Shown in pieces: positions 16,015 to 42,355 of a stretch of 53,395 nt of DNA. This stretch comes from Sulfurovum sp. (GTDB lineage Bacteria > Campylobacterota > Campylobacteria > Campylobacterales > Sulfurovaceae), in contig JAAXPZ010000060.1 in NCBI GenBank assembly GCA_012329065.1, forward strand, positions 1 to 53,395, read 5' to 3'. The notes beneath the pieces were generated by a model, which saw only the letters and a program-made list of their open reading frames with translations, ran no database searches and was not told the DNA's origin. Position 1 is the stretch's first letter; each line of letters begins with the position of its first letter. The translations under genes and the position numbers were made by a program.

Positions 16015-16287
16015 GTGAAATTTGAGTATGACGAAAAGAAAAGTCGAACCAACAAAGAGAAACACAACATAGATTTTGTAGAAGCCCAAAAACTTTGGCA
16101 AGATGAAGATGCCATTGTTGTTCCTGCTAATATTGTTGATAATGAAGTTCGGTATGCTCTCATCTCAAAGATACTTACTAAATGCTTTGTCGTAATATTT
16201 ACCATAAAAGAAGACACAAACAGAATTATTAGTGTCCGAAGATGTAGAAAAAATGAGGAGAAAAATTATGAAAACAATAACAGCTAA
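16015..16287 (+). CDS. brnT: BrnT-family toxin (RNase)
   Basis: This 90-residue protein fits the BrnT family (RelE-like RNase toxins). It opens with KFEYDEKKSRTNKEKHNIDF, matching the FEWDxxKxxxNxxKHG pattern. It closes with a strand-rich segment containing the family's basic RIISVRRCRK motif. The start is GTG at 16015 with AAAGGA upstream. It overlaps brnA by 20 bases, the usual toxin-first order, and appears to be cassette-borne, lying between two attC-like structures. Confidence 0.88.
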   Translation: MKFEYDEKKSRTNKEKHNIDFVEAQKLWQDEDAIVVPANIVDNEVRYALISKILTKCFVVIFTIKEDTNRIISVRRCRKNEEKNYENNNS

Positions 16288-16528
16288 AGAGTTTGATGAA
16301 AAGTTTGATAATGGTGAAGATATAAGTGAATACCTTGATTACTCAAAAGCAACAAAACCTAATGCTCTAAAAACAGATACAAAGAAAGTAAATGTAGATT
16401 TTCCACAATGGGTAATAGAATCATTAGATAAAGAAGCAAAAAAGATAGGTGTTACAAGACAATCAATCATTAAGGTCTGGATAGCAGAAAGACTTAAGGA
16501 AGAGTCTGGACACTTACAGGTAAGTTAA
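16268..16528 (+). CDS. brnA: BrnA-family antitoxin
   Basis: An 86-residue antitoxin. The N-terminus MKTITAKEFDEKFDNGEDI matches the toxin-binding part of BrnA proteins. The C-terminal half (VNVDFPQWVIESLDKEAKKIGVTRQSIIKVWIAERL) is a ribbon-helix-helix DNA-binding domain. ATG 16268 is preferred because GAGGAG lies upstream at good spacing and it gives the usual family N-terminus; an upstream in-frame ATG at 16232 lies inside brnT. The TAA stop overlaps the R''-like box GTTAAC of the following hairpin, a compact arrangement typical of integron cassettes. Confidence 0.86.
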   Translation: MKTITAKEFDEKFDNGEDISEYLDYSKATKPNALKTDTKKVNVDFPQWVIESLDKEAKKIGVTRQSIIKVWIAERLKEESGHLQVS

Positions 16529-16791: not shown

Positions 16792-17814
16792 TCAATACCA
16801 AAATATACTCTTTGTATCTATACATACATCAACAGACTCTCCTGGGTATAGCCTGTATCTATGCATTTTTCGTAGTGGGATTGTCGTTCTTAGTAACACT
16901 TCTGCTATCAGCACCTCCACATGTATATGTTCTCCATTTTTATCAATTTGAAGTGTTTTGACGATGCCAGACAATGGTGATTTCTCTATGGATACTCTAT
17001 CATTTTTTTGATAAACTCTTATCTTGTCTGAACTCAACATTCCCACAGCATTTGAATCTTTTGCTTTGCATTTGAAAATCTTCAATCTTTGACCATCAGC
17101 AAATATCTTTTCACAATTTCCACTACTATCTGTCCTCCAAGGACCAAAGAGCAAATTTACCACTCCACTGTCTACAATCTCACCCTTAAATAGTGTAATT
17201 TTCCTATCACATGCGAGATTGAGCCAATTATGGTCATGGCTTGAAATCATAAGTGTTGTATTCCACTTTTCTTTTGCCAAGAAAGTAGCCTCTTTGATGA
17301 GCTGAGCTGAACCTACATCCACACCAGATGTAGGTTCATCCAATATGAGAACTTTTGGTTTGAGTATCAGCCTAGCAGCCAAAGCAACCCTTTGACTCTC
17401 GCCTCCTGAAAGCCTACTCCATGGTCTAGGAGCAAAATTTTTAAAAAGTCCCACCAGATTCAATGCCTCATAAACTCTCTCTTCTAGATTTACTATATCT
17501 CCTCTGACTTTCAGTCCATATGCAACATTTTCAAAAACAGATCTTTTGAGTAAATATGGATTTTGGGGAAGCATTACTATACCTCTTTTGGTCTCCATAC
17601 TTAGTTTTTTGCTCTCTATTCCATCATAAAAAACTTTGCCTTCTGTTGGAGTATCAACAAAAGAAAGAATATTAAATAGGGTTGATTTTCCACTTCCATT
17701 AGAACCAAAAAAACCTATAATCTTGCCATCATCAATAGATAGATCTTCTATGCGAAGTACACCCCTGCCGTTATATCGCTTCTCTATCTTTTCCAGTCTA
17801 AACAACTCACTCAT
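16792..17814 (-). CDS. tupC: Tungstate ABC transporter ATPase (TupC) with C-terminal TOBE-like domain
   Basis: A 340-residue ABC ATPase. It has Walker A GSNGSGKST, signature LSGGESQRVALAARL, Walker B VLILDEPTSG and an H-loop SSHD. After about residue 225 a 110-residue extension with repeated beta-strand character (SPLSGIVKTLQID, VEVLIAEVLL) resembles the oxyanion-sensing TOBE domains of ModC. ATG 17812-17814 is chosen because it overlaps the tupB stop (ATGA) and has GAGG upstream; an ATG nine bases earlier is also possible. It energises the TupAB tungstate importer. Confidence 0.88.
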   Translation of the reverse strand: MSELFRLEKIEKRYNGRGVLRIEDLSIDDGKIIGFFGSNGSGKSTLFNILSFVDTPTEGKVFYDGIESKKLSMETKRGIVMLPQNPYLLKRSVFENVAYGLKVRGDIVNLEERVYEALNLVGLFKNFAPRPWSRLSGGESQRVALAARLILKPKVLILDEPTSGVDVGSAQLIKEATFLAKEKWNTTLMISSHDHNWLNLACDRKITLFKGEIVDSGVVNLLFGPWRTDSSGNCEKIFADGQRLKIFKCKAKDSNAVGMLSSDKIRVYQKNDRVSIEKSPLSGIVKTLQIDKNGEHIHVEVLIAEVLLRTTIPLRKMHRYRLYPGESVDVCIDTKSIFWY

Positions 17815-18506
17815 CTCATCCATCCTCTTTTTAAAGCTGATAGAGATATGTTAACCATAAGTGCAATAATAAACAAAACCATTCCAAGGGCTATGCCTGT
17901 AGTAAACTCTCCCTTTCCTGTCTCTAGAGCTATAGCTGTGGTTATAGTTCTAGTGTGATATTTGATATTGCCACCTACCATCATAGAGATTCCTATCTCT
18001 GTAACTATTCTGCCGTAGGCAGCAACTGCAGCTGTCATTAAACCAAATTTAACCTCACTTAGTGTTGTCAAAAGTACCTGCTTTTGCGTAGCTCCTAAGC
18101 CGATCAAAGTAGGATAAAGTCTTTTATCTACTGATTCTACCTGAGCAGCCGTCAAAGCGACGATAATAGGTAGCCCCAAAACAATCTGACCAAATGCGAT
18201 CGCCTTAAGGCTAAAAAGCAAATCAAACTCTCCAAGAGCACCACTCTGAGAAAATAGCGTATAAGCAATCAATCCAATCACCACAGTAGGCAGTGCCAAC
18301 AGTGTATCCACAACTGTTCGAATAACCTGCTTGCCTAGAAAATTATAATACCCAAGTACAAAACCAAGAGGCATACCAAGGATCAAGCTAACTGCCAAAG
18401 ACCAACTAGAGACTGTTAGTGTAGCTGTGATAGCTGAGTAGACACTAGGGTCACCTGAAGCAAGCAACTCTATTGCCTGAGAAAAACCATCAATAAATAG
18501 ACTCAT
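17811..18506 (-). CDS. tupB: Tungstate ABC transporter permease (TupB)
   Basis: A 231-residue permease with about five or six membrane segments and an EAA-type loop (IGLGATQKQVLLTTLSE). The segment GRIVTEIGISMMVGGNIKYHTRT is characteristic of TupB/WtpB-like permeases rather than sulfate or phosphate ones. It is overlapped by tupC and follows tupA at 53 bases. It would supply tungstate for the formate dehydrogenases encoded nearby. Confidence 0.9.
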   Translation of the reverse strand: MSLFIDGFSQAIELLASGDPSVYSAITATLTVSSWSLAVSLILGMPLGFVLGYYNFLGKQVIRTVVDTLLALPTVVIGLIAYTLFSQSGALGEFDLLFSLKAIAFGQIVLGLPIIVALTAAQVESVDKRLYPTLIGLGATQKQVLLTTLSEVKFGLMTAAVAAYGRIVTEIGISMMVGGNIKYHTRTITTAIALETGKGEFTTGIALGMVLFIIALMVNISLSALKRGWMR

Positions 18507-18559: not shown

Positions 18560-19426
18560 TTACTTACCTGCATTAGGTACATACAACTGCTGACCTAGTA
18601 GTCTGAAGTCACCAATATCTTTTTGTGTTTTCTCGGTAACTAGCCAGTCTGTAAGCTTTTTAGCTAAATTAGTTTTGACCTTCGGACACCTCTCTTTACT
18701 AATTGTGATAACACTATACTGATTAAAAAGCCCATTGCCCCCCTCTACAGTAATCTGCATACTATTGTTATCGCCTTTTTGGGACATATACTTGATCCAT
18801 GTTGCTCTGTCAGTCATTGTGTAGCCATTTTTTTCTGCTGCCATATTGATAGTCACTAACATACCTTGTCCTGTTTGCACATACCAATCGGACTTCTCGG
18901 GTACTGCCCCTACAGCTTTTTTCCAAAGTGAAATCTCTTTTTTATTGGTTCCAGAGTCGTCTCCGCGACTAAAAAATGGATTCTTTTTCTCTTTGATTAT
19001 TTTTAGAGCTTCATTTTGATTCATCCCGCTAACTTTGGCTGGGTCACTTTTGGGTCCCACTATCACAAAGTCATTGTACATTACCTGTCTTCTATCGGCA
19101 CCAAAGCCGCTGTCCACAAATTTCCTTTCTGACGCAGGTGCATGCACAAATAAAATATCAACATCACAATTTTCACCCATCTTAAGAGCCTTGCCCGTGC
19201 CAATAGCTACCCACTTGAGGGTAACCCCTGTATCCTTCGTGAACTTAGGCCCGAGATAATCAAGTAAACCAGTATTATCTGTACTTGTTGTAGTTGCCAT
19301 CATCAAAGCACCTGCGTCAGCTGTAGAAACTACATCTGTAGTGTCCTTTGTGCCTTCTGCCTGTAGTCCTGCTACTAATAGTAGTACCGTAGATATTGTA
19401 AATATTTTCAGTTTAGCTAGTTTCAT
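18560..19426 (-). CDS. tupA: Tungstate-binding periplasmic protein (TupA)
   Basis: A 288-residue binding protein with a signal peptide (hydrophobic core LKIFTISTVLLLVAGL, cut near QAEG). The mature N-terminus ATTTSTDNTGLLDYL is the TupA hallmark, as opposed to ModA (which lacks TTTST). DSGTNKKE contributes further ligand contacts. ATG 19424-19426 is preferred over an upstream start because AAGGAG is correctly spaced. TupA proteins are highly selective for tungstate over molybdate, which suggests tungsten-pterin formate dehydrogenases here. Confidence 0.93.
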   Translation of the reverse strand: MKLAKLKIFTISTVLLLVAGLQAEGTKDTTDVVSTADAGALMMATTTSTDNTGLLDYLGPKFTKDTGVTLKWVAIGTGKALKMGENCDVDILFVHAPASERKFVDSGFGADRRQVMYNDFVIVGPKSDPAKVSGMNQNEALKIIKEKKNPFFSRGDDSGTNKKEISLWKKAVGAVPEKSDWYVQTGQGMLVTINMAAEKNGYTMTDRATWIKYMSQKGDNNSMQITVEGGNGLFNQYSVITISKERCPKVKTNLAKKLTDWLVTEKTQKDIGDFRLLGQQLYVPNAGK

Positions 19427-19467
19427 TCTTTCTCCTTCTTTCGATTCATACACTAATACTCTTTCAG

Positions 19468-19524: not shown

Positions 19525-19549
19525 CTATTGCCAGCTCCTCCTTTACTAA

Positions 19550-19573
19550 TATGTAATTTTTGCATATTACATA
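19550..19573. promoter_or_regulatory. Palindromic operator candidate upstream of tupA
   Basis: TATGTAAT (19550-19557) and ATTACATA (19566-19573) form a perfect 8-8-8 inverted repeat between the end of the ModE-like regulator gene and tupA. ModE-type regulators bind A/T-rich palindromes before oxyanion transporter genes, so autogenous control of tupABC by the adjacent regulator is likely, but the motif is not the E. coli ModE box. Confidence 0.5.
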
Positions 19574-19591: not shown

Positions 19592-20335
19592 TCAGTCACA
19601 CTTCTTCTTGTTTCTTGGCTTCAAAAATAGCTCTTTAAACCTTTCATTTGCAAACTCCTCAATCTCTTGCTGTAGTTGCCTATACCTCTTGATATAATAA
19701 TCCGCATCAGGTGTCAGTGTAGTTCCGCTATTCTCACCCGCTCCTTTCTGAGATACTACAAGTGCATCATCAAGATTCTTTTGTAGTATTTTGATGTGCG
19801 TCCAAGCCTTTTTATAATTCATGCCTAGCATTTTGGATGCTTTTGAGATAGAGCCATGATCTCTAATCAGTTCCAGTATCTCTGTTTTACCTTTGCCAAA
19901 AAGTAGCTCCCCGCCCTCGTTTTCTATCCAGCTTTTTGTCTTGACATAAAGTCGTTTTCTTTTTTTCTCTTTAAAGCAACCAAGCTCACAATAGATAACA
20001 TCAAGCCCACCTTTTTTAATGGCAGTTCTTACTGCCTTTAGATTGGATTTTTTTGCAAGTTCTCTGGCATCCTTACAATAAGTACGGTCCTTATCATCAC
20101 AAGTCTCATGGATATCCTCAAAAACTTCTTCCCTAAACTCACCCAAAGGCTGCTTACCAAACTGCCCTAAGTCACAAGCAGAGATACGCACATCTATCTC
20201 CTTGCTTCGATTGCCAACTTCCATCGGGCTGATACGAAGTTTATGGGCTACCTTAAAGGCACTAGCACAGGTTAGCTTACCATCCTCACACTGATATTTA
20301 TCGATTAGCTCATCCAGCTCTTTTTCTTTAGACAT
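19592..20335 (-). CDS. ModE-like transcriptional regulator with duplicated N-terminal Cys domain
   Basis: A 247-residue protein. The C-terminal third (about residues 145-215) is a ModE/LysR-type winged helix with GSISKASKMLGMNYKKAWTH and GENSGTTLTPDA. There are no molybdate-binding Mop domains after it. Instead the N-terminal 121 residues hold two similar repeats: C16-x6-C23...C54-DLGxF and C79-x7-C87...C116-ELGxF. The repeats suggest a metal or redox sensing module. The start overlaps fdhD by eight bases with GGAGAG upstream. It likely regulates tupABC and perhaps formate genes according to tungsten or redox state. Confidence 0.8.
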   Translation of the reverse strand: MSKEKELDELIDKYQCEDGKLTCASAFKVAHKLRISPMEVGNRSKEIDVRISACDLGQFGKQPLGEFREEVFEDIHETCDDKDRTYCKDARELAKKSNLKAVRTAIKKGGLDVIYCELGCFKEKKRKRLYVKTKSWIENEGGELLFGKGKTEILELIRDHGSISKASKMLGMNYKKAWTHIKILQKNLDDALVVSQKGAGENSGTTLTPDADYYIKRYRQLQQEIEEFANERFKELFLKPRNKKKCD

Positions 20336-21125
20336 AGATTCTCTCCGGTACTGAGTATATATTCATCTTGTTTCCTCTCACAAAGCCAAGCAGTGTCAAG
20401 TCAAAGTGTCTAGCTATATTCACTCCTCTACAGGTTGAGGCTGTTCTTGATGCCAAGATTGGAATCTGATGCATAACAGCTTTTGCCACCATTTCTGAAC
20501 TCAGTCTTCCGCTAACCATCAAAAAACATTTTCTTACATCAACTCCAGCAAGCCTAGCCTTGCCTACTGCTTTGTCTATGGTATTATGCTGAGCTATATC
20601 TTCACCTATAAAATAAGTATTTTCATCAAAATAGACTTTGGCGGTATGTACACAACCAGTCTGTTCATAGAGTGGGCATTGAGTATAGAACTTTGCCATC
20701 TCACAGGAGAGTAACTTTGCTTTGATTCGAAGGTCTGACCTTATAATCCCTGCTTCTATCGCTTTTGGCGAGATATGAGCACTGCTAGCCCTACCGCAGC
20801 CACTCACTATGACACCCTCTAAGTCAAGCCTATCAAGGCTATCTTCAACGATACTTGCTTTAACTATGGCTTCAAAATTTTTCTCTTCTTTTTCTTTGTC
20901 TATTATCTCTATCTTTGTTATATCTTTTACATCTTTTATGATGTTTTCGCTTATGAGATAACCGACAGTGAGCTCTTTGAGGTCAACCCTGACAGCCATC
21001 ATGGCTCCAATTCTCTTGCCATTAACTATTATGGTCAGCTTAACTTCCCTGATGACATTGTCTTCAACTTCGACTTTCTTTCCATCCATTATCTTTGTTA
21101 CTTTTGTCTCAAAAATCGTCCACAT
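20328..21125 (-). CDS. fdhD: FdhD, sulfurtransferase needed for formate dehydrogenase activity
   Basis: A 265-residue FdhD family protein. FdhD passes sulfur from a cysteine desulfurase to the bis-MGD cofactor of formate dehydrogenases. Family segments are visible: LTVGYLISENII near the N-terminal third, GCGRASS, the TGCVHTA motif, AQHNTIDKAVGKA, and the C-terminal VSGRLSSEMVAKA and SRTAST. E. coli FdhD uses a CxxC loop; here the equivalent SGCGRAS has only one Cys. The gene overlaps the regulator gene. A Crp/Fnr-type site and -10 box lie upstream. Confidence 0.95.
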   Translation of the reverse strand: MWTIFETKVTKIMDGKKVEVEDNVIREVKLTIIVNGKRIGAMMAVRVDLKELTVGYLISENIIKDVKDITKIEIIDKEKEEKNFEAIVKASIVEDSLDRLDLEGVIVSGCGRASSAHISPKAIEAGIIRSDLRIKAKLLSCEMAKFYTQCPLYEQTGCVHTAKVYFDENTYFIGEDIAQHNTIDKAVGKARLAGVDVRKCFLMVSGRLSSEMVAKAVMHQIPILASRTASTCRGVNIARHFDLTLLGFVRGNKMNIYSVPERIYV

Positions 21126-21164
21126 ACTTCCAAGCCTTTCTGTATAAATTCAACTTAATATGCA

Positions 21165-21206
21165 ATTATAGCATATTTAATTTTCCTAGTTGTCATGTAG
21201 CTGACA
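21165..21206 (-). promoter_or_regulatory. fdhD promoter with Crp/Fnr-type operator
   Basis: The palindrome TGTCA-N6-TGACA at 21191-21206 is centred at 21198.5. A minus-strand TATAAT occupies 21165-21170, giving an expected start near 21158. The palindrome centre then lies about 40.5 bases upstream, the class II activator position. The same palindrome recurs before fdhF with almost the same geometry. Confidence 0.65.
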
Positions 21207-21217
21207 TTTATGTAATA

Positions 21218-21442
21218 TTATTTCTCTATCTTTTCCACTCTATCTATAGGTACATGTTTGTTCTCAAGCAACTTTAATGCCTCTGCGATATCCAAAGTAG
21301 ATAGCTTTAGGCATGATCCGCACTCTGCACTAATATCTCTAGGCACAGTTACCGCATTACAATCAATACCTGCATCCTTGAGTACATTTTCTGCCCATGC
21401 AGTATAGTTGGATGAATAGAACAGTATATAAGTGCTCATCAT
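21218..21442 (-). CDS. Se/S carrier-like protein (DUF3343)
   Basis: A 74-residue protein with the DUF3343 layout: an N-terminal strand (TYILFYSSNYTAWAEN), a middle RDISAECGSCLKLS segment holding two cysteines (CGSC), and a C-terminal helix. Pfam describes the family as putative Se/S carriers, and members often accompany selD or a class V desulfurase. It overlaps the desulfurase gene (ATGA), so the two are translated together. An inferred role is to accept Se or S from the desulfurase and deliver it to SelD or FdhD. Confidence 0.8.
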   Translation of the reverse strand: MMSTYILFYSSNYTAWAENVLKDAGIDCNAVTVPRDISAECGSCLKLSTLDIAEALKLLENKHVPIDRVEKIEK

Positions 21443-22614
21443 CTACACTTAATCTCTTTAAGTGCCTCTATAGCTTTTTCTACTTGCCATAATTCGTTAA
21501 AATAGCTGAAGCTGAACCGAACTGTCCCTGACGGGAAAGTGCCTATTCTTTTGTGTGTCAAAGGTGAGCAGTGCAGTCCCTGTCTACTCATAATATTATA
21601 TTCTTCTGACAGTATCTGAGTGATTGTAGAGCATGGGATATTTTTTATTACAAAACTAACTACAGCTCTTTTGTCTTTTGTAGTGTAAACTTTGAGTCCT
21701 TTTATTTCTCTTGCTCTACTGATAAAATATCTTTTCAGACCATCTTTTTTGTTGCCTATGTCGTTTCCATGCTCCCCTATAAAATCTATGGCTTTACCCA
21801 AAGCAGCAATAGCAGGGACATTGGGTGTGCCACTCTCAAAAATATCTGGCAAAAAAGTAGGCTGAGTAATGGCATCTGATAAGCTTCCTGTGCCCCCTTC
21901 TTTGAGGGGTTTTATTCTCCTATAGTCAAATGAATCGTTGATAATCATAGCCCCTACTCCCATCGGACCCAGCATTGATTTATGCCCAGTGAGACAGAGG
22001 ATATCTATATGTTCTTTGTTGATATCGATATCACAAGAGCCTGCTGATTGTGAGGCATCTACGATAGAAACAATATCATTCTTTCTGCACCACCTACATA
22101 CTTTCAAAAGATTTTGAGTCGCCCCTGTGACATTTGAAGCATGATTGATAACTAAAAGCTTAGTATCACCCCTTCTGGCATCTTCAAGTTCATCAATACT
22201 GATAACACCATTTCTGTTTCCTTGCAGTATATCTACCTCTATGATGCCATCATCCTGAAGCCTCATCAGTGGTCTTATAGTGCTATTGTGCTCAAGAGAT
22301 GTAGTAATGACATGCAAACCTTTGTATGCAAAGCCTTTGATAGCAAGATTGAGTACAGATGTTGCATTCATGTCAAAAATAACACGCATTGGGTTTTCTG
22401 TTCCAAAATATTTAGCTAGCTTCATTCTTGTATCAAAAAGGATTTGTCCTGCCTTGATAGAAAGCTTATGTCCTGATCTTCCTGGATTGGCAGCATAGCC
22501 AATCATACACTCTGACATGGCCTCTATCACTGATAGAGGTTTTGGAAAAGTGCTAGCAGCATTATCAAAATAAATAACATTACTCTCATGCTCTAGTGAT
22601 GAAACAAACATCAT
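21439..22614 (-). CDS. Class V aminotransferase, cysteine desulfurase family
   Basis: A 391-residue PLP enzyme. The PLP lysine is in LTGHKSMLGPMGVGAM, the substrate/PLP segment in HNSTIRPL, and the catalytic Cys in SRQGLHCSPLTH near residue 345. The N-terminus VIYFDNAASTFPKP is typical. The sequence style (SRQGLHCSPLAHKxxGT...GTVRFSF) is that of the EF2568-type desulfurases associated with selenium and molybdenum enzymes rather than housekeeping IscS. Downstream partners are the Se/S carrier-like protein and fdhD, suggesting it supplies S or Se to them. Confidence 0.88.
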   Translation of the reverse strand: MMFVSSLEHESNVIYFDNAASTFPKPLSVIEAMSECMIGYAANPGRSGHKLSIKAGQILFDTRMKLAKYFGTENPMRVIFDMNATSVLNLAIKGFAYKGLHVITTSLEHNSTIRPLMRLQDDGIIEVDILQGNRNGVISIDELEDARRGDTKLLVINHASNVTGATQNLLKVCRWCRKNDIVSIVDASQSAGSCDIDINKEHIDILCLTGHKSMLGPMGVGAMIINDSFDYRRIKPLKEGGTGSLSDAITQPTFLPDIFESGTPNVPAIAALGKAIDFIGEHGNDIGNKKDGLKRYFISRAREIKGLKVYTTKDKRAVVSFVIKNIPCSTITQILSEEYNIMSRQGLHCSPLTHKRIGTFPSGTVRFSFSYFNELWQVEKAIEALKEIKCR

Positions 22615-34130: not shown

Positions 34131-34709
34131 TTATCTAGTGCTACTAGCTCTGTTGTCTATGTAAGCACTCACAGAATCATGCGCCTTTTGGGAAACTACT
34201 TGCCCGTCCATTACAGATCCATCCATTATGATTAATGCGCCCGTTGGGCACACCTCTACACACGCTGGTCCACCATCTCTGCCAGTACAAAGGTCACATT
34301 TGACTGCTACACTTTTGCTGCCTATGACTGATTCTAGCCCCAGATTGTAGTCTGGAATAATTGCATAATCAATAGACGGCATGATCTCAGCTTCAGCTCT
34401 AATCGCACCGAATGGACAAGCAAGTGTACACATCTTGCAGCCAATGCAAATCTCTTCATAGCTCTCGATAAAGTCATCGCCAAATCTCAAGGCTCCCACT
34501 GGGCAAACATTAGCACAAGGAGAGTCATCACATTGACGACACTGATTTGGCATAACGCCATTTGGACTTCTAGTCACTATTAGTCTTGGTACTGCTAGCT
34601 TGCCTCTCTCAAATGCTGACTGATAACATCCAGCCATGCAGGTTGCACAACCGATACAAATATCTGGGTTTGCTATAACAAATTTGTTAATTCCTCTTGA
34701 TAAATTCAT
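34131..34709 (-). CDS. hyfA: Electron-transfer Fe-S subunit (HyfA/HycB-like)
   Basis: A 192-residue polyferredoxin with four [4Fe-4S] motifs: CIGCATCMAGCY, CRQCDDSPCANVCP, CIGCKMCTLACP, and CDLCTGRDGGPACVEVCP. It matches HycB/HyfA, which takes electrons from FdhF and hands them to the hydrogenase arm. It overlaps the fdhF stop by four bases. The N-terminus has no Tat signal, so the complex is cytoplasmic. Confidence 0.94.
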   Translation of the reverse strand: MNLSRGINKFVIANPDICIGCATCMAGCYQSAFERGKLAVPRLIVTRSPNGVMPNQCRQCDDSPCANVCPVGALRFGDDFIESYEEICIGCKMCTLACPFGAIRAEAEIMPSIDYAIIPDYNLGLESVIGSKSVAVKCDLCTGRDGGPACVEVCPTGALIIMDGSVMDGQVVSQKAHDSVSAYIDNRASSTR

Positions 34710-36970
34710 GATGACACCTCCGCTACTGGTATTGCTTGTCTTGCTTGTCTATAAAGCTCAGATGGATGCATGAGTTGATCGTCTTCGATACGAATCTCTT
34801 TAAACTCTTTTTCATCTATCTTTCTTATACCTGCTATAGTCATTTTAACTGGGTTCATTTTAGAGAACGGGCATTGATCTTCTGCATTTGCAAGTTTATT
34901 GGCATCTGCTTCAGCATAGTGGAATGTTGTAAAGATTGTATTTTCCACCATATTTGGAGTTACCAGTACTTTCGCAGCAATCTTGCCTCTTTTGTTTTCT
35001 ACAACTGCGTAATCTCCAGTTTTTATACCTGTTCTCTCAGCGATATCTGTACTTATTTCTATAACTGCCCCCATGATATCCGCACCAAACTCAAGAGCGT
35101 TACACTCTCTTGTCATAGTACCCGTATGATAATGATAAACTTTTCTACCTGTTGTCATCATACAAGGGCTTATTTTGGTTGGTTTTTCACTCATAGTTCC
35201 GCATCCTACAGGATAACCTTCTGGCATATTAAGCTCTTCTGCTGTCTTTTTCTCAAAAGCAATTCTCTCTTCTTTGCCATCAACATAGCCGATAGGAATG
35301 AGTTTGAACTTCCCGTCTGGATGGAATGATTTGAAGTCTGTATACTGTATAGGAGTTCCAGGATGCTCTTCATCTGGACATGGCCAAGCTAACAACTCTC
35401 TATTTTTAATTCTCTCATATGTGATACCGCCAAACTGAGCTGGAGCCATAAGTCTTACTTCATCCCATACTTCTTTTGGTGTACGGAAATCAAAGCCATA
35501 AAGATCTATTCTCTTGGCAATCTCACATATTACTTGCCAATCAGGCATGAGTCCTTCAGCTGGTTCTATAGCTTTTGGAAGATATTGAACACATCTTGAT
35601 GTATTTAAGAATGTACCCTCTTTTTCAGTCCAGCAAGCTGCAGGAAGCACAACATCTGCAATCTGAGCAGTCTCAGTCAAGAAAATATCTTGCACAATGA
35701 ATGTGTCAAGTTCTGAACACGCATGTATAAAGTGGTGCGTATCAGGATCGCTCATCACAGGATTTTCACCAAAGACATAGAGAAGTTTGACTTCACCTTT
35801 TTCTATATTTTCTGGCAAATCTGTCATGGTATATCCGACTTCAGAGTTCAAGTTGCATTTCCAAATATTTTTGGCTTGTTTTTGAGCATTATCTGTCATA
35901 ACCCATCCACCAGGGATAACATGTGGCAAGGCACCCATATCACAAGCACCCTGAACATTGTTTTGTCCCCTTAGTGGGTTTATCCCAGTACCAGGTCTTC
36001 CTATCTGCCCAGTAATGAGTGCTAGATTGGAGATAGCGAAGATATTTGAAGTACCATCAACAAACTGAGTCATACCCATAGTATAAGCAAATGATGCTGC
36101 TGGTACTTTGGCATAAAGTTCTGCAACTTCTCTAACTACTGAGGCTTTTATGCCAGTCTCTTCTTCAACTCTTTCAGGAGTGAAGTCTTTTACACAATGC
36201 TTAACATATTCAAAACCTACACAATTGTCATCGATAAACTTTTGATTATGCAAACCTTTTTTGATGATGTGATTCATCATAGCGTTAAGTAATGGGATAT
36301 TGTAACCTACAGGAATCTGTAAATAATAATCGGCTTTTTTGGCCATATCAGTTTTTCTAGGATCGATTACTACTAATTTCGCTCCTCTTTTCATGCCTCG
36401 TAACATTTGCATAGCAATGATAGGGTGGCACTCGCTTGTATTTGTTCCCATACAGAAAATTAAATCTGAATCTGTCGCAAACTCTGTTAAATTATTCGTC
36501 ATGGTTCCAGCACCTAATGTATTAGTCAGACCGACTACTGTTGGACCATGTCAGAGACGAGCACAGTGATCTACGTTATTTGAACCTTGTACTCTAAATA
36601 ATTTTTGGAAGATATAGTTATCTTCGTTTAGACATCTTGCTGATGAGAATCCCATGATATGATTAGGGCTGTGCTCTGCGACTACTCTTTTCATCCTGCT
36701 TGCAGCAAAATCTAATGCCTCATCCCAGCTTACTTCCTCCAATTTACCATCTTTAGAAAAAACACCTTCTTTTTTTCTAATGAGTGGCTTTGTCAATCTT
36801 CTTGGGGAATGTACATATTCCCAGCCATACATACCTTTGAGGCACAGCTCACCATCGTTGATAGGGTGTTTTTCAGTTGGCTCAGCTTTGACAATTTTGT
36901 TATTTTCAACAAAAAGGTCAATATTACATCCGGTCCCACAATAAGGACAGACTGTTTGAAACTTTTCCAT
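34706..36970 (-). CDS. fdhF: Cytoplasmic selenocysteine formate dehydrogenase H-type (FdhF)
   Basis: Two open stretches of one frame (36551-36970 and 34706-36550) are joined through TGA 36551-36553. The protein is 754 residues with Sec140, the position Sec has in E. coli FdhF, in CARL-U-HGPTV; E. coli has CARV-U-HGPSV. A [4Fe-4S] motif CPYCGTGCNI begins at residue 7. The bis-pterin domains and the C-terminal molydopterin-binding fold (GTMTRECNALEFGAD, GDYAVVENKRGKI) follow. It lacks a Tat signal. It oxidises formate and feeds the hydrogenase encoded downstream. A good SECIS hairpin lies just after the UGA. Tungsten is a likely metal given tupABC. Confidence 0.96.
36523..36537 (-). promoter_or_regulatory. 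SECIS hairpin of fdhF
   Basis: Stem TAGTC/GACTA with loop GGTCT. The loop covers bases 21-25 counted from the U of UGA, the same place and sequence as the GGUCU loop of the E. coli fdhF SECIS bound by SelB. Confidence 0.85.
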
Positions 36971-37058: not shown

Positions 37059-37086
37059 AAAAAGAAGAGAATCTGTACTTTTTAAA

Positions 37087-37103
37087 TATGCATAATTTGC
37101 ATA
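37087..37103. promoter_or_regulatory. Second inverted repeat upstream of fdhF
   Basis: TATGCA-TAATT-TGCATA is centred at 37095, about 86 bases upstream of the inferred fdhF start. It is nearly identical to the repeat at 16769-16787 after tupC. Its binding protein is unknown. Confidence 0.35.
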
Positions 37104-37179
37104 ACTAAATTATTTTCGCTAATTATAACTTATGTTACATAATTATTACAACAAAAAAGTCATAAGAGCCAATGACTAC

Positions 37180-39523: not shown

Positions 39524-42355
39524 CTATGCTTTCTCTATGTGGCATAATCCGCCTTTAGTTTCTGGAATCTGAGTGATGATGTCATAACCGTAGTTTGTAA
39601 CTGTATTTGCACTCTCTCCAACAGCATATGGTGTTGTACCTTCTGGATATTTATGTGACAAATCCTCTCCTTGAAAATGTCCAGCATAGTGGAATGGCAA
39701 AAATACCCTATCTGGACTAACACTAAATGAGAATTTTGCCTTGACCTTGATTTTGGTTCCCTCTGGAGAATGGATCCATATCATGTTGCCATTTTTAATA
39801 CCTAGATTGAACGCCAAGTCTGGATGCATGTCACAAAACATCTCTGGAGTCAAGGCTGCTAGATATTTGGATCCTCTTTCTGCCACACCAGCACCATTCA
39901 TATTTACCAAGCGCCCAGTAACAAGATTGACAGGGAAATCTTTTGACCAATCTTTCTCAGACTGCACACTAGCGTATTTCGTATCAACCCTATAGTGATT
40001 TTCCTTGTCTTTATAAGTTGGATGAGCTTTGGTAAGATCTGATCTTGGAGAGTGCAATGGCTCTCTATGTATAGGGATAGGGTCTGGGAATGTCCAAACC
40101 TTTGCCCTAGCCTTTGCATTTCCATATGGTGCTATGCCAGCCTCCATACACTTTTGGGCAATTATATTTGAAGTATCTACTTTCCAGTTTTTACCTATTT
40201 TTGCCTTTTCTTCGTCTGTCAGCGTTATACCCAAGACCTCTTCTATATTTTCAGCTGTAATCTCTGGATATCCATCAGGATTGGCTGATCCAACTGGTGC
40301 AGAACCCTTTCCAGCAAGCAGATCCACTCCCTCTCGCTCAACTCCAAATCTATTTCTAAAGCCCATTCCTCCCTCTTTGACAGGGAGACTAATGTTATAC
40401 AATATAGGGCTTCCAGAGTGCGTCTCTGTCCAGCATGGCCATGGAAGTCCATAATACTCACCTTTCATTGGACCAAATCCTCTTAAGCTGACTTTATCAA
40501 ACATATGCCAATTGTCAGTATGTTTTTTGATTCTCTCAGCCGTCCATCCAGTAAGTCCGATGGTTTTGATAATTCTTGCTATCTCATCAGTAGCATCTTC
40601 AGGGAATGTAAACTCTTTTTTGTTCTCCCTTATGAGCATACCTTTTGTATATTCACCATAAAAACCAAGTCTTTTTGCAAGCTCAAACATGACCTCATGA
40701 TCAGTTTTGCTCTCATATAACGGTTCTACTACTTTGCTTCTCCACTGTGCAGAACGATTTGTTGCAGTTACCGAACCACTTGTCTCAAACTGTGTTGCAG
40801 CAGGCAAAATAAATACATCATCCTGCTTATCAGTAAGTATAGCTGCCTCATTTACAAATGGATCAGCCAATACAATCAATTCTAAATCATCAAGTGCTTC
40901 TTTTACTTTTGCCTGCTGAGCAATAGAAGTAATACCATTACCCATAACAAAAAGTGCTTTTAGATTAGTTCCAGCATTGTGTATCTTGTCTTCTCCTGGC
41001 TTACCAGCAAGTACACCTGCATACCAACGAGATAATGAAAAACCTTTAGCACTCATCATCTTCTTATCTTTAAATCTTCCAGCTAGCCACTCATAGTCAA
41101 CTCCCCAAGATTTAGCGAAGTATTTCCATGAGCCAGCACTAAGACCATAATAGCCAGGAAGAGTATGAGAAAGGCAACACATGTCTGTTGCTCCTTGCAC
41201 ATTATCGTGCCCTCTGAGAATGTTAGTTCCTCCACCCTCTACACCCATATTTCCAAGTGCGAGTTGAATTATTGGGGCTAGGCGCGTATTTGATGAACCT
41301 ATATTATGCTGAGTAAGACCCATAGCCCAAATAAGCGTGCCAGGAGTTGACCTTGAGTATACTCTAGTTATCTGCATTAACTTCTCAACACTTACGCCTG
41401 TAACATCTTCTACTTTTTCAGGAGTCCACTTTTTAGCTTCTTCCATCACTTCATCCATAGCATATACTCTGTCATTTATAAATTTTTCATCATGCCATCC
41501 GTTTTTGAATATCAGATGAAGCATACCATACATAAACGGGATGTCAGTACCAGGTCTGATCTGTGCATATATATCAGCTTTTGCAGCTGTTTTCGTCATT
41601 CTTGGATCTACCACAATGATCTGAGCGTTATTTCTCTCTTTGGCTTTTAGAAAATGTCCGAAACCTACTGGGTGATTTACCGCAGGGTTTGCTCCAAATA
41701 TAATAATTGCTTTAGCATTTTGTATATCTCCAAGTGAATTGGTCATAGCGCCATAACCCCATGTATTCGCCACACCGGCGACTGTTGCACTATGTCAGAT
41801 TCGAGCTTGGTGATCTATGTTGTTAGTTCCATAAAATGCTACAAACTTCCTAAAGTAATACGCTTGCTCTGTACCCATTTTTGCTGAACCCAAAAACATA
41901 GTTGCATCTGGGCCATCATTTTCTCTGATGTTTTTTAGTTTGGAGGAAATTCGCTCATAGGCTGTATCCCAACTGATACGCTTCCACTTGCCACCCTCTT
42001 TTACCATAGGATGTTTTAATCTCGCTCCAGCTCTGACCATATCGATCATACCAGCACCTTTACAGCAGTGTCCACCCATACTTACAGGATGATCCTGTGC
42101 TACCTCTTGTCGAACCCATACGCCGTTTTGAACTTCTGCAGTAATACCACAACCTACAGAACAGGCTGTACATACCGTTCTTACTTTCTTTGATTCTGGG
42201 AATGGGTTTCTAATCTCTTCCTGCGTTGCTGCTCTTGTCACTCCTGTGGAGGCAAATGCACTGGTAGCTCCAAATGCTCCAGCAATTCCTGCCATTTTCA
42301 GAAATGAACGACGACCTACTTTGGTCGATAGTGCCTTATCAGTATCTGTTTTCAT
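39524..42355 (-). CDS. fdhA: Periplasmic selenocysteine formate dehydrogenase catalytic subunit (FdhA)
   Basis: The frame continues through TGA 41795-41797 to give 943 residues with Sec187 in the context ARI-U-HSATVAG. A Tat signal VGRRSFLKMAGIAG is present near the N-terminus, followed by a [4Fe-4S] motif CTACSVGCGI. The large bis-pterin domains (NPAVNHPVGFGHF, GGGTNILRGHDNVQGATD) match FdnG/FdhA. It is the periplasmic formate-oxidising subunit donating electrons via FdhB and FdhC to quinone. ATG has AAGGAG upstream. Read as two genes, the Sec residue would be missed. A MITE-like element separates it from the upstream Tat-protein gene. Confidence 0.96.
41767..41781 (-). promoter_or_regulatory. 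SECIS hairpin of fdhA
   Basis: Stem TCGCC/GGCGA with loop GGTGT, the loop covering bases 21-25 from the U of UGA, exactly the position seen in the fdhF hairpin. The loop differs by one base (GGUGU versus GGUCU). Confidence 0.8.

Follow-up and report, generated by a model that had tools for sequence, protein, structure and literature searches.

The window (the whole 53,395-nucleotide stretch of DNA analyzed here) contains a long same-strand formate locus that ends with a ModE-like regulatory gene. This locus encodes a respiratory formate dehydrogenase (FDH) with an in-frame TGA codon (39524-42355) and a second, TGA-containing formate dehydrogenase (34706-36970) accompanied by hydrogenase-like subunits, and it further holds a formate transporter together with cysteine desulfurase-like and Se/S carrier-like proteins. 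The gene order on the minus strand is fdhD, the modE-like gene, tupA, tupB, and tupC, and the modE-like open reading frame (ORF) shares its first 8 bases with the end of fdhD. The placement between fdhD and tupABC, first proposed by a sequence-only reading of this DNA, is confirmed by ORFs and family matches. The genes and protein domains considered here are as follows.

21439..22614, minus strand: class V aminotransferase/cysteine desulfurase-like protein (PF00266, E 2.3e-73)
21218..21442, minus strand: small Se/S carrier-like protein (PF11823, E 1e-15)
20328..21125, minus strand: fdhD (NF001943, 274.7 bits, above the cut-off)
19592..20335, minus strand: ModE-like regulator with tandem cysteine domain, 247 amino acids (ORF list and homologues of the same architecture)
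19961..20335, minus strand: N-terminal tandem cysteine domain of the regulator, residues 1-125 (AlphaFold2; no confident family match)
20156..20314, minus strand: repeat 1 of this domain, residues ~8-60, with invariant C23 and C54-x-L-G-x-F-G (alignments, HHalign)
19970..20131, minus strand: repeat 2, residues ~69-122, with invariant C87 and C116-x-L-G-C-F (alignments, HHalign)
19592..19960, minus strand: ModE-type winged helix-turn-helix (HTH) and C-terminal helix, residues 126-247 (TIGR00637, 2ijl, 1b9m)
18560..19453, minus strand: tupA (NF041772, E 3.7e-104, 347.8 bits, below the cut-off of 400)
17811..18506, minus strand: tupB (NF041773, E 3.7e-82, 275.6 bits, below the cut-off of 320)
16792..17823, minus strand: tupC (NF041774, E 3.3e-56, 190.6 bits, below the cut-off of 400)

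After tupC, on the plus strand (16015-16528), lie two small overlapping genes that we take to resemble a BrnT/BrnA toxin-antitoxin pair.

The C-terminal half of the regulator is of ModE type. Residues 147-240 matched TIGR00637, the ModE repressor domain, along 94 of its 100 positions (E 6.6e-16) with a score of 58.2 bits, below the NCBIfam curated cut-off of 98.5, and the HTH-only ModE structure 2ijl was matched in the PDB with an E value of 6.2e-12. An AlphaFold2 model of the whole protein (mean pLDDT 88.5, from 30 aligned sequences) aligned to Escherichia coli ModE (1b9m) in VIA-align with a Z of 15.4 and an rmsd of 1.7 over 101 residues. A Pfam scan at E 1 found no TOBE/Mop domain in the protein, while PF03459 (TOBE) was matched in five canonical ModE proteins of relatives that served as controls. 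The description of this gene as a ModE HTH joined to a duplicated cysteine-bearing N-terminal domain, with no Mop sensor domain, is therefore upheld by TIGR00637, HHalign (below), and the TOBE control. The ModE-type HTH is matched only once in the 1.94-Mb assembly, and the sole TOBE domain of the assembly lies ~0.2 kb from modA. We rejected assignment to the LysR-type regulators, in which an HTH at the N-terminus precedes an effector domain resembling periplasmic binding proteins: HTH_1 was matched at residues 152-210 only (E 1.8e-6), in the C-terminal part, and there was no effector-domain match.

The N-terminal domain (N-domain) is a genuine internal duplication, as had been proposed for residues 10-121. 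HHalign aligned its first half to its second over 50 columns with a probability of 97.3 and an E value of 1.7e-11; C23 falls opposite C87, and C54 opposite C116. All of 100 column shuffles scored far lower (best score 18.4 versus 52.7 for the real halves). By profile, the ModE HTH has no resemblance to either half. In an alignment of 26 N-domains (15 from fused and 11 from stand-alone proteins), C23, C54, L56, G57, F59, G60, C87, C116, L118, and G119 were unchanged. Among 108 aligned homologues, C54, C87, and C116 were cysteine in all, C23 was cysteine in all 106 with a residue at that place, and C120 was cysteine in 101, with far fewer cysteines at the positions of C16 (1 of 108) and C79 (4 of 108). 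The pattern C-x6/7-C-x~30-C-(D/E)LGxF that was read twice in this protein thus holds for the window sequence, but its first cysteine (C16, C79) is not a family feature; the pattern of the family is C-x~30-C-x-L-G-x-F, twice.

AlphaFold2 predicted the N-domain alone with a mean pLDDT of 93.6 and a pTM of 0.82. In the first half of the model, three helices (residues 3-13, 23-33, and 37-46) are accompanied by one strand (51-53); the second half has three helices (69-76, 87-94, and 99-108) and two strands (84-86 and 112-115). The predicted order in the two halves is near-identical: helix, short strand, helix, helix, and strand. In VIA-align the best rows came from NuoE chains, specifically their helical part (Z 6.7, rmsd 2.3, 53 residues aligned, where values are meaningful from a Z of 8), followed closely in score by ribosomal L11 and homeodomains. 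The NuoE-type helical domain is a three-helix bundle that precedes a thioredoxin-like 2Fe-2S domain. As modeled, each half of the N-domain is an ordinary three-helix arrangement, and the likeness to NuoE is not a family assignment; no family exceeded a Z of 8 in VIA-align, from which a new fold does not follow. The sequence-only reading had allowed that the N-terminus might be a known domain with another role, and none was assigned by Pfam, NCBIfam, PADLOC, PHROGs, or the PDB. A PDB profile search gave nothing below an E value of 0.2, PADLOC and PHROGs gave nothing below 0.03, and Foldseek against the PDB and viral models had no match at 0.001. Across the 26 N-domain sequences, Pfam and NCBIfam produced scattered matches only, in at most 4 of 26 members and with no family-wide consistency. 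We accordingly set aside Homeodomain (6.7e-5, one member of 26) and DUF7645 (3.9e-4, 4 of 26 members).

We surveyed 397 Campylobacterota genomes, of which 143 contained the N-domain, 193 contained FdhD, and 111 contained TupA. The N-domain co-occurred with FdhD in 123 of its 143 genomes (Fisher P 8e-31, ignoring kinship) and with TupA in 96 (Fisher P 1e-39, ignoring kinship), leaving 20 N-domain genomes with no FdhD match and 47 with no TupA match; conversely, 70 of the 193 FdhD genomes were without an N-domain. The 66 named loci comprised 37 with a fused gene, 25 with separate adjacent N-domain and HTH genes, 3 with the HTH alone, and 1 with the N-domain alone. Of the 63 that carry an N-domain, 59 have fdhD directly upstream, and in all 25 split loci the gene directly after fdhD is the stand-alone N-domain. 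This arrangement in Arcobacteraceae and relatives, a stand-alone N-domain between fdhD and an HTH-only ModE, is, as far as our literature searches show, new here. In a tree of 106 N-domains, a single well-supported branch separates fused from split forms, with one Sulfurospirillum fragment (L088) as the exception, and a single fusion or fission event therefore suffices to account for the two forms.

Some Arcobacteraceae carry extra stand-alone copies of the N-domain. Of nine that we inspected, eight occupy a shared place in the genome and form one clade, and the ninth (L127) adjoins a second aminotransferase-like gene, after tupC. Because eight of the nine lie among genes without a link to molybdenum or tungsten (Mo/W), the N-domain is not confined to the control of these metals. 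The eight (L120-L126 and L128) retain all invariant cysteines and sit beside genes for a HAD phosphatase, an aminotransferase, or LOG-like or mla/ttg2-like proteins (all names but HAD were given by eye). A protein of ~320-340 amino acids is also conserved after the HTH gene in Arcobacteraceae (L087 6699-7673, L127 4968-5984, L131 6642-7640), and in L131 and L127 it directly follows the stand-alone N-domain with no HTH gene between; two of the three tested had no Pfam match, and the third had a weak class V aminotransferase match. A second, diverged HTH-only ModE-like gene follows tupC in L072 (11665-12018) and L087 (11494-11856).

Four Campylobacter lari-like genomes (G058, G086, G189, and G165, with loci L132, L133, L135, and L137) have the fused gene directly 3' of fdhA-fdhB. 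These genomes contain fdhC, a TGA-split fdhA, and fdhB and have no FdhD match, and in them the fused gene precedes yedF- and selD-like genes (named by eye). A record named Campylobacter jejuni GP013 (L057/L139) keeps the fused regulator at a place where the fdh genes and FdhD are absent, and its genome (G114) gave no FdhD match. The N-domain had no match on plasmids and no relative on viral contigs. Genome contigs were scanned with patterns from the query protein only, and we do not claim a restriction of the N-domain to Campylobacterota.

The fused genes are followed by palindromes that approach a common form, AATATGC-N7-GCATATT, and the window contains three sites of this kind.

21156..21178, no strand assigned: putative operator upstream of fdhD-modE, consistent with autoregulation (no mismatch)
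19547..19569, no strand assigned: putative operator TAATATG-N9-CATATTA upstream of tupABC (one mismatch to AATATGC-N7-GCATATT)
37084..37106, no strand assigned: weaker, tentative operator-like site upstream of the operon of the second formate dehydrogenase, which is FdhF/formate hydrogenlyase-like (two mismatches, matrix score 19.8)

A palindrome noted earlier at 19550-19573 is present, but the conserved element is shifted from it by 3-4 bases, to 19547-19569, and the better copy is the one at 21156-21178. The earlier form, ATGTAAT-N8-ATTACAT, was found 14 times with up to two mismatches against 11 times in the control and is thus not a recurring element in this genome. The site at 21156-21178 is the only exact operator copy in the 1.94-Mb assembly, and with up to one mismatch the assembly contains only this site and 19547-19569, which flank fdhD-modE. 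With two mismatches there were 29 sites against 4 in the control, many of which belong to a different palindrome. A matrix search of the window and the 66 named loci, using nine seed sites, returned 116 matches in 762,848 bases versus 2 in the reversed sequence, a test that is partly circular since the seeds come from the same material or close relatives.

Across genomes, the site tracks the N-domain. We searched 20 N-domain genomes and 8 TupA genomes without an N-domain, leaving out G173 and evaluating the remaining 19 of the former, and counted sites up to 300 bases ahead of tupA or up to 9 kb ahead of the N-domain gene. In 15 of the 19, a site preceded tupA or the fdh/N-domain operon; G079, G097, G131, and G135 were the genomes without one. 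Sites upstream of the N-domain gene lay mostly at 6.2 to 6.7 kb, corresponding to the head of the fdh operon where inspected. None of the eight TupA genomes without an N-domain had a site upstream of tupA, the only position testable in them. Matrix scoring of the stretches upstream of tupA gave a site in 9 of 10 genomes with the N-domain versus 0 of 5 without it, with G401, whose match lies ~480 bases from tupA, scored as a miss. The matrix found no operator around modA in this genome (L184). The same operator stands beside formate dehydrogenase genes in a Desulfopila locus (L062) that encodes an HTH-only ModE and no N-domain, suggesting that the HTH can probably serve without the N-domain.

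We abandoned the notion that C. jejuni-type genomes lack a site at the fdh operon, which rested on 0 of 7 genomes at a threshold of 11, yet a degenerate site occurs in the genus of the C. jejuni GP013 record just before the first fdh gene in all five operon-bearing genomes. These degenerate sites scored 6.3 to 10.4 and were the best or second best in the surrounding ~10-kb stretch; that they are real operator copies is suggestive only, and direct control of fdh would on this basis be possible in the C. jejuni-type genus too.

This kind of regulator is not new, since its apparent orthologue by sequence, C. jejuni ModE (Cj1507c), has already been published. The L057 protein, from the record titled C. 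jejuni GP013, shares ~49% identity with the window protein over residues 2-242, and C. jejuni-type ModE has the same fusion, the same lack of Mop, and fdhD directly upstream. The tupABC genes of C. jejuni presumably lie elsewhere in the genome than modE, and tupA was far from the N-domain in the related genomes that we searched, whereas the window gene stands directly before tupA. In the parts of PMC7011364 available to us, Cj1507c is described as a ModE repressing both mod and tup operons without a metal-binding domain and as regulated by Mo/W transport status (from a 2009 paper cited there), and it is considered as a possible DNA-binding subunit of a complex, with mention of a protein-protein binding site. 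Deletion of C. jejuni modE abolished FDH activity, which was restored by complementation and from which the authors infer a role beyond repression, according to the available portion of PMC11237541. E. coli ModE (1b9m, 1o7l) shares the winged-helix DNA-binding domain, but its HTH is N-terminal with two Mop domains behind, while in the window protein the HTH is C-terminal with the cysteine domain in front; its consensus, ATCGCTATATANNNNNNTATATAACGAT (as quoted in the portion of PMC2700814 that was accessible), differs from the window operator. HTH-only ModE proteins (2ijl of Agrobacterium and that of Desulfopila in L062, the latter 68% identical to the window protein over residues 129-237) have the HTH in common and neither kind of sensor domain. 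In TunR, the tungstate-responsive regulator that controls tup genes in sulfate reducers, a Mop-type sensor is combined with a DNA-binding domain of another kind, an arrangement opposite to that of the window protein. Our literature searches, mostly of openly readable papers, returned no description of the cysteine domain, its stand-alone form, or the operator, and as far as these searches reach, what is known is the regulator, through C. jejuni, with those three features undescribed.

We consider it probable that this Campylobacterota form of ModE, equipped with a cysteine-based input domain, controls tungsten uptake and formate dehydrogenase, and the conserved operator beside tupA and fdhD supports control of both sets of genes. 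The C-terminal winged helix would bind AATATGC-N7-GCATATT before tupABC and fdhD-modE and, in many relatives, also ahead of the operon for formate dehydrogenase. In place of the Mop domains, the tandem repeat at the N-terminus would serve as the input module. Its cysteines may hold a metal, sulfur, or a cluster, and its state would change in response to a signal linked to the supply of Mo/W or cofactor. ModE would then repress tungstate uptake (in C. jejuni molybdate uptake too) and would probably support expression of the formate dehydrogenase genes, presumably by activation at fdh.

An unlikely alternative in our judgment is that the N-domain is an FDH maturation factor that works with FdhD, handling sulfur, metal, or cofactor, and that the fusion both builds FDH and reports its assembly status to the tungsten uptake genes. 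The place of the stand-alone gene directly after fdhD in every split locus is what such a factor might be expected to show, as are the adjoining cysteine desulfurase-like and Se/S carrier-like genes in the window and the position of the fused gene after fdhA-fdhB in C. lari-like genomes with no FdhD match. The C. jejuni mutant without any FDH activity, read by its authors as beyond repression in the available part of PMC11237541, points the same way. However, a simpler account of that mutant is the operator upstream of the fdh operon, of which the C. jejuni-type genus has a degenerate copy in 5 of 5 operon-bearing genomes: direct activation would explain the phenotype plainly and leave a maturation role possible but unneeded. 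The N-domain is moreover absent from more than a third of FdhD-bearing genomes (70 of 193) and is kept in L057/L139, at a place that has neither FdhD nor fdh genes. For much the same role in combined form, we hold it improbable that the N-domain is an undescribed sensor that also helps to build formate dehydrogenase, making the protein a maturation factor and repressor that couples FDH assembly to tungsten uptake; Mo/W, a pterin cofactor, or sulfur might, for instance, be held between two pseudo-symmetric cysteine pairs.

We also doubt that the N-domain is a structural or complex-subunit module. Split genes in Arcobacteraceae and relatives imply that both parts are able to work as separate, probably interacting proteins, the available text of PMC7011364 speaks of a protein-protein binding site, and the model places a three-helix core of a common kind in each repeat; yet a cytosolic domain of bacteria that are mostly anaerobic or microaerobic has long kept four to five cysteines, which suits a functional site equally well or better. 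The same cysteines, four invariant plus C120, would also suit a redox switch based on Fe-S or thiols, with an effect like that of FNR or OxyR, linking the tungsten and formate genes to oxygen, and the formate dehydrogenases of the locus are selenoproteins (in-frame TGA) that are expected to be oxygen sensitive. We regard this as quite unlikely, because the C. jejuni orthologue is reported to be regulated by Mo/W transport status (PMC7011364, in the part available) and neither the sequence nor the fold of the N-domain matched any known redox switch, although the latter is weak evidence.

The available portions of PMC7011364 and PMC11237541 leave open how C. jejuni ModE responds to Mo/W without a metal domain and why FDH is lost in the mutant. 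The invariant cysteines, the stand-alone form, and a concrete operator make both of these questions experimentally simple. If the N-domain binds Mo/W, a cluster, or sulfur, the regulator would represent a sensing route distinct from Mop/TOBE.

Another palindrome, AATATGTCAATTTGACATATT, recurs with close variants in several copies on assembly contigs C2, C6, C17, C25, and C31 and looks like the operator of another regulator. Copies of the tup/fdh operator itself were also seen in other genomes (L182 ~1041-1126, L183 ~1180-1270, L188 ~1659-1806), where they precede genes identified by eye as encoding a xanthine dehydrogenase-type enzyme and a second formate dehydrogenase; these sites would extend the regulon to other Mo/W enzymes.
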